From positions 1 through 37,009 of the forward strand of contig CAUJDS010000034.1 in assembly GCA_963169695.1 (NCBI GenBank): DNA of 37,009 bases, given 5' to 3'. Below are positions 32,921-37,009 of this stretch, one piece after another (position 1 is the first letter of the stretch; each line of letters opens with the position of its first letter). The translations under genes were made by a program, and so were the position numbers. The notes beneath the pieces were generated by a model that searched no databases, was not told where the DNA came from, and was given only the letters and a program-made list of their open reading frames with translations. The stretch comes from Bdellovibrionota bacterium (GTDB lineage: Bacteria > Bdellovibrionota > UBA1018 > CAUJDS01).

Positions 32921-32998
32921 CGGGGTGTAGCGCAGCCTGGCTAGCGCATCTGCTTTGGGAGCAGAGGGTCGCTGGTTCGAATCCAGTCACCCCGACCA
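32921..32998 (+). tRNA. tRNA-Pro (anticodon TGG)
   Basis: The 78-nt sequence folds as a cloverleaf: acceptor arms CGGGGTG and CACCCCG, D arm GCGC/GCGC, anticodon stem TCTGC/GCAGA around loop TTTGGGA (anticodon TGG, proline), T arm GCTGG/CCAGT around TTCGAAT, and an encoded CCA end. A strong intrinsic terminator starts 11 nt downstream. Its 3' end is duplicated at 33169-33189. Confidence 0.96.
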
Positions 32999-32999
32999 T
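32979..32999 (+). repeat. tRNA-Pro 3'-end sequence, source copy of a 21-bp direct repeat
   Basis: The 21 bp covering the T-arm 3' side, acceptor strand and CCA plus one T recur exactly at 33169-33189, 190 bp downstream. Tyrosine-recombinase elements commonly use such tRNA 3' ends as attachment sites. No integrase is visible nearby. Confidence 0.8.
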
Positions 33000-33008
33000 A
33001 AAAAAAGA

Positions 33009-33041
33009 GCCGTCAGCCCTTGGGTTGGCGGCTTTTTTTTT
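33009..33041 (+). terminator. Intrinsic terminator of tRNA-Pro
   Basis: GCCGTCAGCCC (33009-33019) and GGGTTGGCGGC (33022-33032) form an 11-pair stem with two G-T pairs, followed by nine T. This is a classical Rho-independent terminator immediately after the tRNA. Confidence 0.9.
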
Positions 33042-33118
33042 GTGTGGGTGTTTCTGGATTCGAAGGGAATGGTGCGGCCCGCAGTGCGGGCTTTGTGAGC
33101 GTGATGCGAACAAAAGCA
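33009..33118 (+). repeat. 110-bp tRNA-tail repeat, copy 1
   Basis: The block holds the terminator, then GTGTGGGTGTTTCTGGATTCG, then the palindrome CCCGCAGTGCGGG. It recurs at 33360-33469 with only two mismatches, and its central 49 bp recur at 35295-35343. Confidence 0.9.
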
Positions 33119-33168
33119 CCATGACCCGGCCCGAAGAGGATCGAGCCTGAAGCGAGATCCGATGAGGG

Positions 33169-33189
33169 GAATCCAGTCACCCCGACCAT
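33169..33189 (+). repeat. Copy of the tRNA-Pro 3' end (attachment-site-like)
   Basis: This is an exact 21-bp duplicate of 32979-32999 without the rest of the tRNA. It could be an att-like scar of an element that integrated at the tRNA, or a product of local duplication. Confidence 0.75.
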
Positions 33190-33193
33190 TTTT

Positions 33194-33223
33194 GCCGGAT
33201 GGAAAAAATCCGGAGCGCAGCGT
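33194..33223 (+). repeat. 30-bp direct repeat with internal hairpin, copy 1
   Basis: The sequence starts GCCGGATGGAAAAAATCCGG and continues to CGCAGCGT; CCGGAT and ATCCGG pair. It recurs exactly at 33279-33308, 85 bp downstream. Confidence 0.85.
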
Positions 33224-33278
33224 GGGTCCTGTGGACCCAGAAAATCGTAGGATGCGATTTTCTAGTGAGCACCGTAAA

Positions 33279-33308
33279 GCCGGATGGAAAAAATCCGGAG
33301 CGCAGCGT
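33279..33308 (+). repeat. 30-bp direct repeat with internal hairpin, copy 2
   Basis: This is an exact copy of 33194-33223. Between the copies lie two further palindromes, GGGTCC-TGT-GGACCC and an AGAAAATCG/CGATTTTCT pair. Confidence 0.85.
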
Positions 33309-33359
33309 CCGTGCAGCGCACGGCTGTGAGGCAGGAGCCGAACAGAGCGAGCACCTAAT

Positions 33360-33469
33360 GCCGTCAGCCCTTGGGTTGGCGGCTTTTTTTTTGTGTGGGT
33401 GTTTCTGGATTCGAAGGGAATGGTGCGGCCCGCAGTGCGGGCTTCGTGAGCGTGATGCGAACGAAAGCA
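33360..33469 (+). repeat. 110-bp tRNA-tail repeat, copy 2
   Basis: This copy of 33009-33118 has two substitutions and an intact terminator hairpin plus T9. No tRNA precedes it, so the terminator has no obvious gene to end. Confidence 0.9.
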
Positions 33470-33626
33470 GGCCTACGTAACGGTTTAGATATGGTTTGGG
33501 CGAGACAATTTGAAAGTACGACGACAGTGAAGGGAAAAGCCTTTTGGGCCTGAGGAAGCGTTAAAATCAATTTGGCTATATAAAAAGTCACTGAACACTT
33601 CGTTGGCAAGCGATAGAAAAAAACCA

Positions 33627-33635
33627 TGTTATAAT
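33627..33635 (+). promoter_or_regulatory. Extended -10 promoter TGTTATAAT
   Basis: This is a perfect TG-N-TATAAT extended -10 element ending 8 nt before the GTG start at 33644. No -35 at normal spacing and no Shine-Dalgarno are visible, so the transcript may be leaderless. Confidence 0.55.
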
Positions 33636-33643
33636 CTCATCAA

Positions 33644-35074
33644 GTGTTTCACCTTAAACGGGCCATTTTTTCGCTAATTGTTTTTCTTTTACCTCAAATG
33701 GTGGCGGCTAAAGATGAGTTCGAGGAGTTCAAGAAGCTCTTGGACCAGTTGGGAAAGAAAACCACTGTCTCACCTGGAGCGTATACGCTTAACGATTTAG
33801 CGATTGATTACAAGAAAATGGTGAGTGCTCCCAATCCTACACAGTACTTCGCAACCAAACCGGCCTCCGCTTCTCGAATCGTGGAAATTCTCGAACTGTA
33901 TCGAAAATTTCAGAGTGGAATCCAATTTCCAGTTCAGTTTTACCATTCCGCAGTGAGCAACAGAGAACCTATTAATGTACTTGAATACAGTGGACTAAGA
34001 GATCGACTGGCTTCAGTCATTGCACCCCTACATGGCGCTTGGCCTGATGTAATGCGTGTACCAACTCTAGGGAGTATTTTTGCAAATGCACCCATCGACC
34101 TCTCACCCCTACAAAAAAGGGCAATGCTAGAGATCGGTACATTCCTCTCTGGCGGCGGGCCACCCGAAACAAATTTATTCTCGCAGATTCGTGCCCTCGC
34201 AAATGGGGAATTTGTATCTCTTAGACCTAGTGAGGAAGAAGTTGCGGGTGTCATTGAGCGGGCACACTTGGAGCTGCGTTTCGACGAGCTGCTGGGGTCA
34301 GAGCCACTCAAGCGTGCAGTAGTTTCAAAAAAAATAGAAGGATTTGCTGAATTCTCAGCCACGTGTCCAAGGGAAGGAAAGCTTCTGCTTCAGCTTTTCT
34401 TACTGTCCGATTCCAATCGTTTTCCCACGGAAGGGTTGCGATTAGGCTCTAAAACTTCCTGCAATGCTGTGACTAGGAACACCTTTATGCAAACCTATGA
34501 AAGCCGACAAACTGGCAAGGAAGCCTTCGATCTCGCTGATCGTTATGGGATTGTGCTCAGTCCGGTAGACAGGTGGTCAATCATGGATCGCTATCGCTTT
34601 AGGAATATCTTCGGCGGCATGCCTACAACGATGTTTGAGGATATGCCTCCGGTTCTCATCGTACGCGATGTGACCCTGCCGGGAGCTAAGGGGTGGTATT
34701 GGCATACTTTTAATATCTTGAATGTTGGTAAGAAACCCGATGCGGCTACCGTTAGGCACGAACTGACGCACGGCTGGGATAAGGCGGTTGGAGGCTTTTC
34801 AGGTACTCCTCAGTGGCTAGAGTCTTCAGGTTGGAGAGAATTCACATATAATGGGAGTAAAATGGATCATCGGGTGTTGATTCCATACGGAGACAATTTT
34901 GTGAGCACGTATGCAAGCTATTCGCCAGCCGAAGATCTTGCCGAAAGCGTTGCTCGTCCTAAACGACTCGATTTATCTAAACGCGCTTTACTGGAGACGC
35001 GGGTGCTGCATCCACCCAGTTGCATCAGACGGATAGTTCGAGAATACCTGTCACGTCATAAAAGTTCGATCTGA
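33644..35074 (+). CDS. Exported protein with HExxH metallopeptidase motif
   Basis: The 476-aa product begins with a signal peptide ('MFHLKRAIFSLIVFLLPQMVAA'). The C-terminal half has the zinc-binding motif 'TVRHELTHGWD' (His372, Glu373, His376), and about 55 residues later 'YSPAEDLAESVA' offers a third ligand (Glu430 or Glu434). This is the gluzincin/M4-like order HExxH...E, so a secreted zinc peptidase is likely. The N-terminal 300 residues are helical and unrecognised. It starts with GTG 33644, directly after an extended -10. The gene lies between two copies of the tRNA-tail repeat, so it may have been gained or moved as a unit. It shares the HExxH idea but no obvious sequence with the gene at 31873-32808. 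Confidence 0.78.
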   Translation: MFHLKRAIFSLIVFLLPQMVAAKDEFEEFKKLLDQLGKKTTVSPGAYTLNDLAIDYKKMVSAPNPTQYFATKPASASRIVEILELYRKFQSGIQFPVQFYHSAVSNREPINVLEYSGLRDRLASVIAPLHGAWPDVMRVPTLGSIFANAPIDLSPLQKRAMLEIGTFLSGGGPPETNLFSQIRALANGEFVSLRPSEEEVAGVIERAHLELRFDELLGSEPLKRAVVSKKIEGFAEFSATCPREGKLLLQLFLLSDSNRFPTEGLRLGSKTSCNAVTRNTFMQTYESRQTGKEAFDLADRYGIVLSPVDRWSIMDRYRFRNIFGGMPTTMFEDMPPVLIVRDVTLPGAKGWYWHTFNILNVGKKPDAATVRHELTHGWDKAVGGFSGTPQWLESSGWREFTYNGSKMDHRVLIPYGDNFVSTYASYSPAEDLAESVARPKRLDLSKRALLETRVLHPPSCIRRIVREYLSRHKSSI

Positions 35075-35294: not shown

Positions 35295-35343
35295 CCTTGG
35301 GTTGGCGGCTTTTTTTTTGTGTGGGTGTTTCTGGATTCGAAGG
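35295..35343 (+). repeat. tRNA-tail repeat, truncated copy 3
   Basis: The 49 bp match 33018-33066 exactly: the right arm of the terminator, T9 and the GTGTGGGTGTTTCTGG segment. The left terminator arm and the downstream palindrome are missing. With copy 2 it brackets the HExxH gene. Confidence 0.88.
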
Positions 35344-35957: not shown

Positions 35958-37009
35958 CTAAGGCGCTCCGTACCCATAACCTGGAGTACGATAGTCATTG
36001 TTGAAGGGGTGATTCTGAAACCACGTTGCGAAATTGATTCGACCTTCACCTTGACCGATCGGTACCTGTTGCACGGGTCCAAAATTTACAAAAGGTGGAG
36101 GCTGTGTAAGTAATAGGTTCTGTGCCCACAGGAGCGGAAATTGCAGCTGCATATCGCGGACTAATCGAATACCTGTCAGTCCTCGACAATACAGCTCAGT
36201 AAAGGGTGTGCAAAACTTAGCACTCAAATTCTCAGGATAGATCGCGTTATGCTTCACTGAGAATCCATCCATCGTCCGAATGCCTCGATACTCCGCGGTT
36301 TCGTCGGCAATGGAAGTGCCCAAAATCTGACTCGCAATGCCGTATAAGATATTGTCTTCTATCTTGATATCCCAGGATGGATGCATCGCATATTCATTGA
36401 GTCCCGGGATGTATGGCCCATCAGTGGAAGTTACGATGACAGGGTAACTAGAAGGGCTATCCGTATTGGACATATCCCAAGACGTCGATTGAATAGCCAA
36501 AGTATTATTCCTCACCCAGTGATGAGAGGTGACTCGAAGATGTGCGGCTTGCCAATCTATCATGCCTCTTGGTCCATTGGTTGGATTGGTGAGGTCCCAA
36601 TAGGTAGGATCTACATAACTATATGCTAGGACGATCGCTTGCTTCTGATTCTCTACGATCGTGTTTTTCTGAATCAGAACATTGGCGTTACCCGTATCAG
36701 CAATACCACCCAACTTATTTCTTGCGATAAAGTTCGATTCAACTCGAATAAATTGATGGGAACCGTTGATCTGAAGGCCAAACCTGCTATTCCACATCAA
36801 CGTATTATAAGCGATCGTAATATACTTGCTCGCATTGCCGGCTACACCCAAGGCAGCAAAATAAATACCGTGCTCAAGCATCGTGCCCAATACAGTACAA
36901 CCTTCAATCACGACGCGACTAATTTCTCTGCCATAGGCCTGCATTCCCCACTTCATGGCATTGGTAATGGTGAGAAAGCGAAGCTTCACATCCTCGATAT
37001 TATCGATAT
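35958..37009 (-). CDS. Parallel beta-helix (pectate lyase-like) repeat protein, 5' partial
   Basis: The visible 350 residues end at a true stop at 35958, but the reading frame continues through the window edge, so the N-terminus is missing. The sequence shows regular short repeats of the right-handed beta-helix type: 'VVIEGCTVLGTMLEHGIYF', 'ITIAYNTLMWNSRFGLQI', 'IRVESNFIARNKLGGI' and 'VLIQKNTIVENQKQAIVL'. Each has an Asn-rich turn. Such helices occur in pectate lyases, adhesins and other carbohydrate-active surface proteins. No catalytic residues can be assigned. The apparent GTG at 36989 lies inside the helix and is not a credible start. Confidence 0.8.
   Translation of the reverse strand, partial: IDNIEDVKLRFLTITNAMKWGMQAYGREISRVVIEGCTVLGTMLEHGIYFAALGVAGNASKYITIAYNTLMWNSRFGLQINGSHQFIRVESNFIARNKLGGIADTGNANVLIQKNTIVENQKQAIVLAYSYVDPTYWDLTNPTNGPRGMIDWQAAHLRVTSHHWVRNNTLAIQSTSWDMSNTDSPSSYPVIVTSTDGPYIPGLNEYAMHPSWDIKIEDNILYGIASQILGTSIADETAEYRGIRTMDGFSVKHNAIYPENLSAKFCTPFTELYCRGLTGIRLVRDMQLQFPLLWAQNLLLTQPPPFVNFGPVQQVPIGQGEGRINFATWFQNHPFNNDYRTPGYGYGAP

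Follow-up and report, generated by a model that had tools for sequence, protein, structure and literature searches.

The window, i.e. the whole stretch of 37,009 nt that was analysed, contains one tRNA gene, tRNA-Pro(UGG), according to both ARAGORN and Rfam, and a series of repeats follows its 3′ end (Table 1). An earlier note on this DNA had described a 21-nt copy of the tRNA tail, a 110-nt block recurring with two mismatches and a further recurrence of 49 nt, and all of these were placed correctly. Its statement that the repeats do not form a tandem tRNA cluster also holds. Searches with ARAGORN and with Rfam gave no further tRNA. With up to three mismatches allowed, the tail has no copy in the 37 kb besides the one listed in Table 1, and shuffled sequences gave none. 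The two tail copies are separated by 169 nt of non-coding hairpin sequence.

The order of the unit is tRNA, terminator, an inverted copy of the tRNA tail (ANTI), a body of ~100 nt with nested hairpins, and a direct copy of the tail (TAIL). Positions 33034-33064 repeat the tRNA tail and its A-run in inverted orientation, with 77% identity over 31 nt. Downstream of TAIL lie two tandem units of a second kind, whose heads are identical and whose internal hairpins differ, with an AGGA loop in each; the first of them is related to the flank of tRNA-Val(GAC) (match at G000 C75). They are followed by a truncated copy of the first unit, in which the block 33009-33118, running from the terminator through the inverted tail to the middle of the body, recurs with 2 mismatches in 110 nt, and the second terminator copy at 33360-33383 is called by a terminator scan. 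The repeats of the window confirm the earlier view that the tail and the terminator are what gets copied; the inverted tail, the base-paired nature of the two mismatches and the tandem units had been missed.

Table 1. Features of the tRNA-Pro(UGG) locus and its downstream repeats.
Feature	Position	Strand	Basis
tRNA-Pro(UGG) gene, host of the unit	32921-32998	+	ARAGORN; Rfam RF00005, 64.8 bits
tRNA tail, T-loop to CCA plus one base (copied segment)	32979-32999	+	exact repeat at 33169
Intrinsic terminator of the tRNA-Pro gene, stem 33009-33032 plus T-run	33009-33041	+	sequence
ANTI, inverted tRNA tail; best-kept part CTGGATTCGAA at 33054-33064	33043-33064	+	inverted repeat; own-tRNA-specific inverted copies at many tRNAs
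Body, multi-hairpin module with three-way junction	33065-33168	+	MFE fold; related bodies at other tRNAs
Tandem-GA hairpin TTTGT-GAGC-GTGAT-GCGA-ACAAA, with compensatory pair 33094/33112	33092-33114	+	
Second tandem-GA hairpin GGATC-GAGC-CTGAA-GCGA-GATCC	33138-33160	+	
TAIL, direct copy of the tRNA 3′ end, paired with ANTI in the fold	33169-33189	+	exact 21-nt match; fold
Second kind of unit, copy 1: 30-nt head, hairpin GGGTCC-TGT-GGACCC, AGGA-loop hairpin 33239-33263	33194-33278	+	
Second kind of unit, copy 2: identical 30-nt head, other hairpins (CCGTGC-AGC-GCACGG; GGC-AGGA-GCC)	33279-33359	+	
Truncated copy of the first unit: terminator, ANTI (33405-33415) and first body half, without TAIL	33360-33469	+	98% over 110 nt
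Unit fragment: 3′ half of terminator plus ANTI, between two protein genes	35295-35343	+	49/49 nt

Among the protein genes of the region, the one at 33644-35074 (+), between the unit copies, encodes a protein with a HELTH zinc-peptidase-like motif and a weak Peptidase_Mx match below the cut-off. The last gene of the window, at 35958-36989 (-), encodes a beta-helix/NosD-like protein.

Predicted fold and hairpin motifs

Folded as RNA, positions 33040-33190 give an MFE of -69.8 kcal/mol with a z-score of -6.25; the z-score as DNA is -5.1. In the predicted structure ANTI pairs with TAIL, and a three-way junction and the two tandem-GA hairpins are formed. The two mismatches between the 110-nt copies (33094 T vs 33445 C, and 33112 A vs 33463 G) turn out to be the two partners of a single base pair, changed from T-A to C-G, in the first of these hairpins. 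The chance that two random substitutions compensate in this manner is ~0.002 in a simulation based on the MFE fold of the isolated block, where this stem is slipped by one base. Through a comparison of the bodies at different tRNAs, it was found that most pairs of helices P2-P4 vary while the pairing is kept. The MAFFT alignment of the bodies misplaced helix P2 between families, hence the helices were compared by hand; since they were read by eye, the retained pairing is partly by construction. The fold of the unit is maintained through compensating changes. The acceptor half of ANTI has drifted without compensation in some units, including that of the window, which counts against the explanation preferred below.

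The tandem-GA hairpin occurs 10 times in 35 kb of sequence after tRNAs, against 0 times in 267 kb of background. The same motif is present 4 times in the tyrT repeats of E. coli and 4 times in those of Klebsiella, and it has been reported in RtT RNA by a covariation study (PMC7657543).

Hairpins with an AGGA loop are enriched 6-fold on the sense strand after tRNAs (19 in 35 kb vs 17 in 195 kb, p 2e-7), and the antisense core TCCT shows no enrichment there. Such a sense-only enrichment is what CsrA-type sites would be expected to show, and we put forward the AGGA-loop hairpins, as a hypothesis, as candidate sites of this type.

Units at other tRNA and tmRNA genes

In the genome of the window the flanks of 34 tRNAs were read, and the 31 isolated ones were counted. 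Copies of the tRNA's own tail are found after tRNA-Pro(UGG), Pro(GGG), Met, Val(UAC) and three Ser tRNAs. Arg(ACG), His and Cys carry inverted copies without a good tail copy, two of them near contig ends or truncated. A TAIL matching its own tRNA follows 7/31 isolated tRNAs in this genome, 13/33 in G011 and 8/30 in G026 (23-39%), the latter two genomes, of which G026 is a pond metagenome bin, belonging to other families of the same order. The permutation means for this count are 0.3-0.6, with p ~2e-4 for each of the three genomes. An ANTI matching its own tRNA is present at 9, 8 and 11 isolated tRNAs, respectively, against 0.6-0.7 by permutation, and swapping the tails between tRNAs does not reproduce the signal. 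ANTI and TAIL usually lie 100-130 nt apart.

The same architecture is seen at a tRNA-Met of another order of the phylum (L210), with a direct repeat of 42/42 nt from the T-loop. It is also not confined to tRNAs: the tmRNA gene of G011 (L274:1155-2230) is followed by a unit array with two copies of its own tail and a third, truncated unit, and that of G027 (L275) by an array of such units with its own tail copied. The occurrence is patchy, with no unit at the sampled tRNAs of G004 and G022. The earlier note had proposed a search for matching tail, or tail-plus-terminator, repeats at other tRNAs, and such repeats are present at many of them, both in the window's own genome and in its relatives.

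The bodies are shared more widely than the tails. A near-identical stretch of ~40 nt is common to the body at the window genome's Val(UAC) and that at the tRNA-Asn of G026, and the tRNA-Met and Arg(ACG) units of the window genome have most of their bodies in common. Where the bodies are common, ANTI and TAIL differ by locus and are fitted to each tRNA. The direct repeats start in the T-loop and reach up to 53 nt in these genomes. Within one genus, a tRNA-Gln unit occurs in three genomes (G011, G016 and G021), where the bodies differ, and is missing from four (G005, G014, G025 and G029); a tRNA-Met unit is found in G011 only. This comparison of congeners concerns presence and absence with unmatched flanking genes, so the unoccupied loci are not proven empty sites; no clean pair of empty and filled sites with both flanks conserved was found. 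The tails are thus copied from the local tRNA, the bodies are common to different tRNAs, and the units come and go between close relatives.

Several further features of these flanks were observed. An insertion-sequence-like end, GGCTCTTCTCAGTTGATGGTGGGTCACCGTCACAAAG, lies downstream of six tRNAs of the window genome (L042, L043, L046, L052, L063 and L066; Phe, Ala, Met, Val(CAC), Arg(UCG) and Leu(CAA), in that order), and the contig ends within ~180 nt in 5/6 of these sites; given these contig ends, an assembly-breaking repeat seems to favour tRNA flanks. In relatives, at L138, L153, L163, L173 and L183, the interval between tRNA and ANTI holds an inverted repeat of 20-30 nt, often perfect, right after the CCA, which encloses a second structured insert and replaces the plain terminator. 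At L237, in G021, a unit lies beside an apparently partly deleted tRNA-Arg and the last flank copy is inverted, which is possibly a trace of hairpin-driven rearrangement.

Relation to the tRNA-linked repeats of Escherichia coli

The existence of tRNA-linked repeats (TLRs) in E. coli has been recognised since 1978. They lie in operons of tRNA or rRNA genes, singly or several at a locus. In strain K-12 there are 22 of them at ten loci; their hallmark is that the unit closes with 18-19 bp identical to the end of the RNA gene immediately upstream, and they have no known function (PMC8144298). In the window the tail copy is identical over 20-21 nt and is accompanied by genome-wide specificity for the own tail. 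The unit immediately follows tRNA-Pro and is joined by further copies in an array, and its counterparts follow other tRNAs and a relative's tmRNA. The inverted tail and the multi-hairpin body reproduce the layout of the K-12 tyr, lys and arg units. Among the 48 K-12 tRNA genes that we examined, tyrT/V, lysT/W/Y/Z/Q/V and argV/Y/Z/Q have a window-like layout; their tails and ANTI match Tyr, Lys or Arg, and they have in common a core around GTTGC-loop-GCAAC-GGCCCGAAGGGCGAG. At lysQ and lysV (L277, L281 and L282 being K-12 lys/arg loci) the terminator is repeated after the tail copy, as in the window; direct repeats of tail and terminator (~61 nt at lysV) lie on either side of the units there, and a model organism thereby offers a clear-cut case of target duplication.

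The E. coli TLRs, including rttR and the 178-bp repeats of tyrT, thus resemble the window-type units in ending with a copy of the 3′ end of the upstream gene, and in the inverted tail closing the fold, the multi-hairpin body with tandem-GA motifs, the arrays, the repetition of tail plus terminator at lysQ/lysV, and the presence at several tRNA types with locally fitted tails. The window unit is very probably a TLR-type element, a kind of element known from E. coli that the earlier note did not recognise.

The two sets differ in that the body sequences are mostly different and that RF00391, the Rfam model of RtT, does not detect window-type units: it gives no match over the cut-off in the window genome or in 20 relatives. 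The strict 3′ module of E. coli (CCCGNAGGG-hairpin-GAGT-ATCC before the tail) is likewise absent from the window unit, which has the looser form GGCCCGAAGAG-hairpin-GATGAGGGGAATCC. As the model gives no match, the unit is not filed as RtT itself; with the strict module absent too, the case for common descent with the E. coli TLRs rests on architecture and short motifs. The strict module pattern matches 5/369 genomes of the phylum (reversed control 0), and 4/5 of these matches, in four relatives of this order, fall on units adjacent to tRNA tails, the tRNA being tRNA-Pro in three cases. At a relaxed threshold, Rfam finds no convincing family besides tRNA in 13 unit loci. A conserved 46-nt body module gave nothing above noise in plasmids; its pattern gave nothing in viral contigs, and a looser pattern one G026 contig only. 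The E. coli unit, searched for in phage and plasmid collections, gave enteric records only. Compared with the E. coli TLRs, the window-type units lie mostly after a terminator, turn over fast between species, and occupy about a quarter or more of the tRNAs, of many types, plus tmRNA. That the unit is a divergent, expanded form of a known kind of repeat, far outside the enteric bacteria, is well supported.

Three TLRs in rRNA operons, RrA, RrB and RrF, lie between two terminators (T1 and T2). They are made as read-through transcripts that undergo processing, and in vitro they bind Hfq and CsrA (PMC8144298). They share with the window unit the position between two terminators, the tail copy of the upstream RNA gene and GGA motifs (PMC8144298); their host is 5S rRNA and their conservation is confined to Enterobacteriales, whereas the hosts of window-type units are tRNAs and tmRNA. 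The annotated 3′ end of rttR RNA coincides exactly with the CCA of the tail copy. An RNA with its 3′ end at the CCA of TAIL may be released from the units described here, the odds of which we put at slightly below even. Given the strong terminator before it, transcription of the window unit is uncertain.

Proposed origin and spread of the units

We propose that a body reaches a new tRNA or tmRNA 3′ end in an event that would duplicate the target between its T-loop and its CCA, often with additional sequence past the CCA (up to ~50-60 nt, terminator included). Because the target tail is duplicated, the tRNA would stay intact. Recombination between the tail or terminator copies may then give rise to arrays and to incomplete copies like those at 33360-33469 and 35295-35343. 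As a whole, a divergent TLR-type element that spreads and recombines in this way is the likely explanation of the locus; for the step of spread between tRNAs by target-tail duplication, considered singly, we infer only a slight balance in favour. The unit may be a processed RNA module spread by this route between tRNA 3′ ends. The earlier reading of the layout as insertion scars or repeated local duplication is borne out as far as repeated copying is concerned, given the arrays in the window, at a relative's tmRNA and at E. coli tyrT. It is incomplete as regards scars: rather than being bare scars, the copies mark where a conserved, folded unit begins and ends, one that has an inverted tail and a hairpin body common to several loci.

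A point against the preferred explanation is that no recombinase or transposase could be linked to the units, and the lack of a clean pair of empty and filled sites is another. Most unit-rich genomes have no reverse transcriptase, and the presence of Y1 transposases does not track the units; for these reasons no enzyme is named here. A Y1 transposase (REP/RAYT) was considered as the driver and rejected, as PF01797 is absent from the unit-rich G026 and present in G004 and G022, which are unit-free as sampled. REP/BIME hairpins with RAYT are likewise short dispersed palindromic elements; they differ from window-type units, which are tied to tRNA ends, have locus-specific tails and do not follow the presence of Y1.

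An alternative interpretation might be that the host itself makes palindromic copies through template switching during replication, with no mobile element involved. Snap-back at the terminator hairpin and then at the body hairpin would convert a tail into tail, inverted tail and tail, which agrees with the order tail, hairpin, inverted tail, hairpin, tail. The AT-rich flank beside the tail is also inverted in the G011 and G026 relatives, as a perfect inverted repeat of 20-30 nt, the last copy is inverted in G021, and no enzyme correlates with the units. However, local copying does not explain the long body stretches conserved across tRNAs and families, nor the motifs common to these bodies and E. 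coli, and template switching seems to us unlikely as the origin of the units.

It is also conceivable that the unit is a vertically inherited functional small RNA, either a regulator or a CsrA sponge, whose ends are matched by gene conversion without any mobility. The conserved fold with its compensating changes and the 6-fold sense-strand enrichment of AGGA-loop hairpins after tRNAs would fit such an RNA, as would the binding of CsrA and Hfq by three E. coli TLRs in vitro (PMC8144298). The deletion of rrA, rrB and rrF in E. coli gives modest phenotypes only (PMC8144298), which speaks against it. Presence and absence within one genus, the different bodies at the same tRNA there and the location of the units mostly behind a terminator argue in the same direction, and we consider this origin quite improbable.

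Att cores of some tyrosine integrases run from the T-loop past the CCA, as do the direct repeats found here, which would suit scars left at the attachment sites of tRNA-targeting integrative elements. Unlike att-site duplications, the inserts at the tRNAs studied are small and non-coding, have both a conserved folded body and an inverted tail, and contain neither integrase nor cargo between the tail copies in the loci read, which makes scars of this sort, the nested insertion scars of the earlier note, very unlikely. A tRNA-primed retroelement, with ANTI corresponding to a retroviral primer-binding site and TAIL to the copied primer end, would match the span of ANTI from CCA to T-loop in the best-kept cases (e.g. 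L180 and L183), but it is scarcely credible when no reverse transcriptase (PF00078) is found in any of five genomes with units or parts of them (the window genome, G026, G023, G016 and G021). The possibility, raised earlier, of a remnant of one deleted tRNA duplicate, which the exact 21-nt copy of the tRNA end might suggest, has virtually no chance, as each TAIL is preceded by ANTI and a body rather than by the 5′ half of a tRNA, and the layout recurs at unrelated tRNAs, at tmRNA and in E. coli.

Returning to a mobile TLR-type element, the idea may be extended to TLRs as widespread tiny mobile RNA modules at tRNA, tmRNA and rRNA 3′ ends, with the tail copied in both orientations at each new site and with AGGA loops in the present lineage, so that read-through would produce a CsrA sponge. 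This extension is doubtful; if it is true, growth-rate-linked read-through of tRNA genes would yield a CsrA sponge in this lineage. Such regions can also interrupt assemblies and pass for attachment sites. For the TLRs of E. coli, neither function nor origin has been settled so far, and the order-wide set described here makes comparison possible. The inverted tail, the tandem-GA hairpin, the AGGA loops and the breakpoints in the T-loop are testable features, and a set in which bodies are gained, lost and swapped and tails are local can separate the mobile, processed-RNA and replication-slip models.
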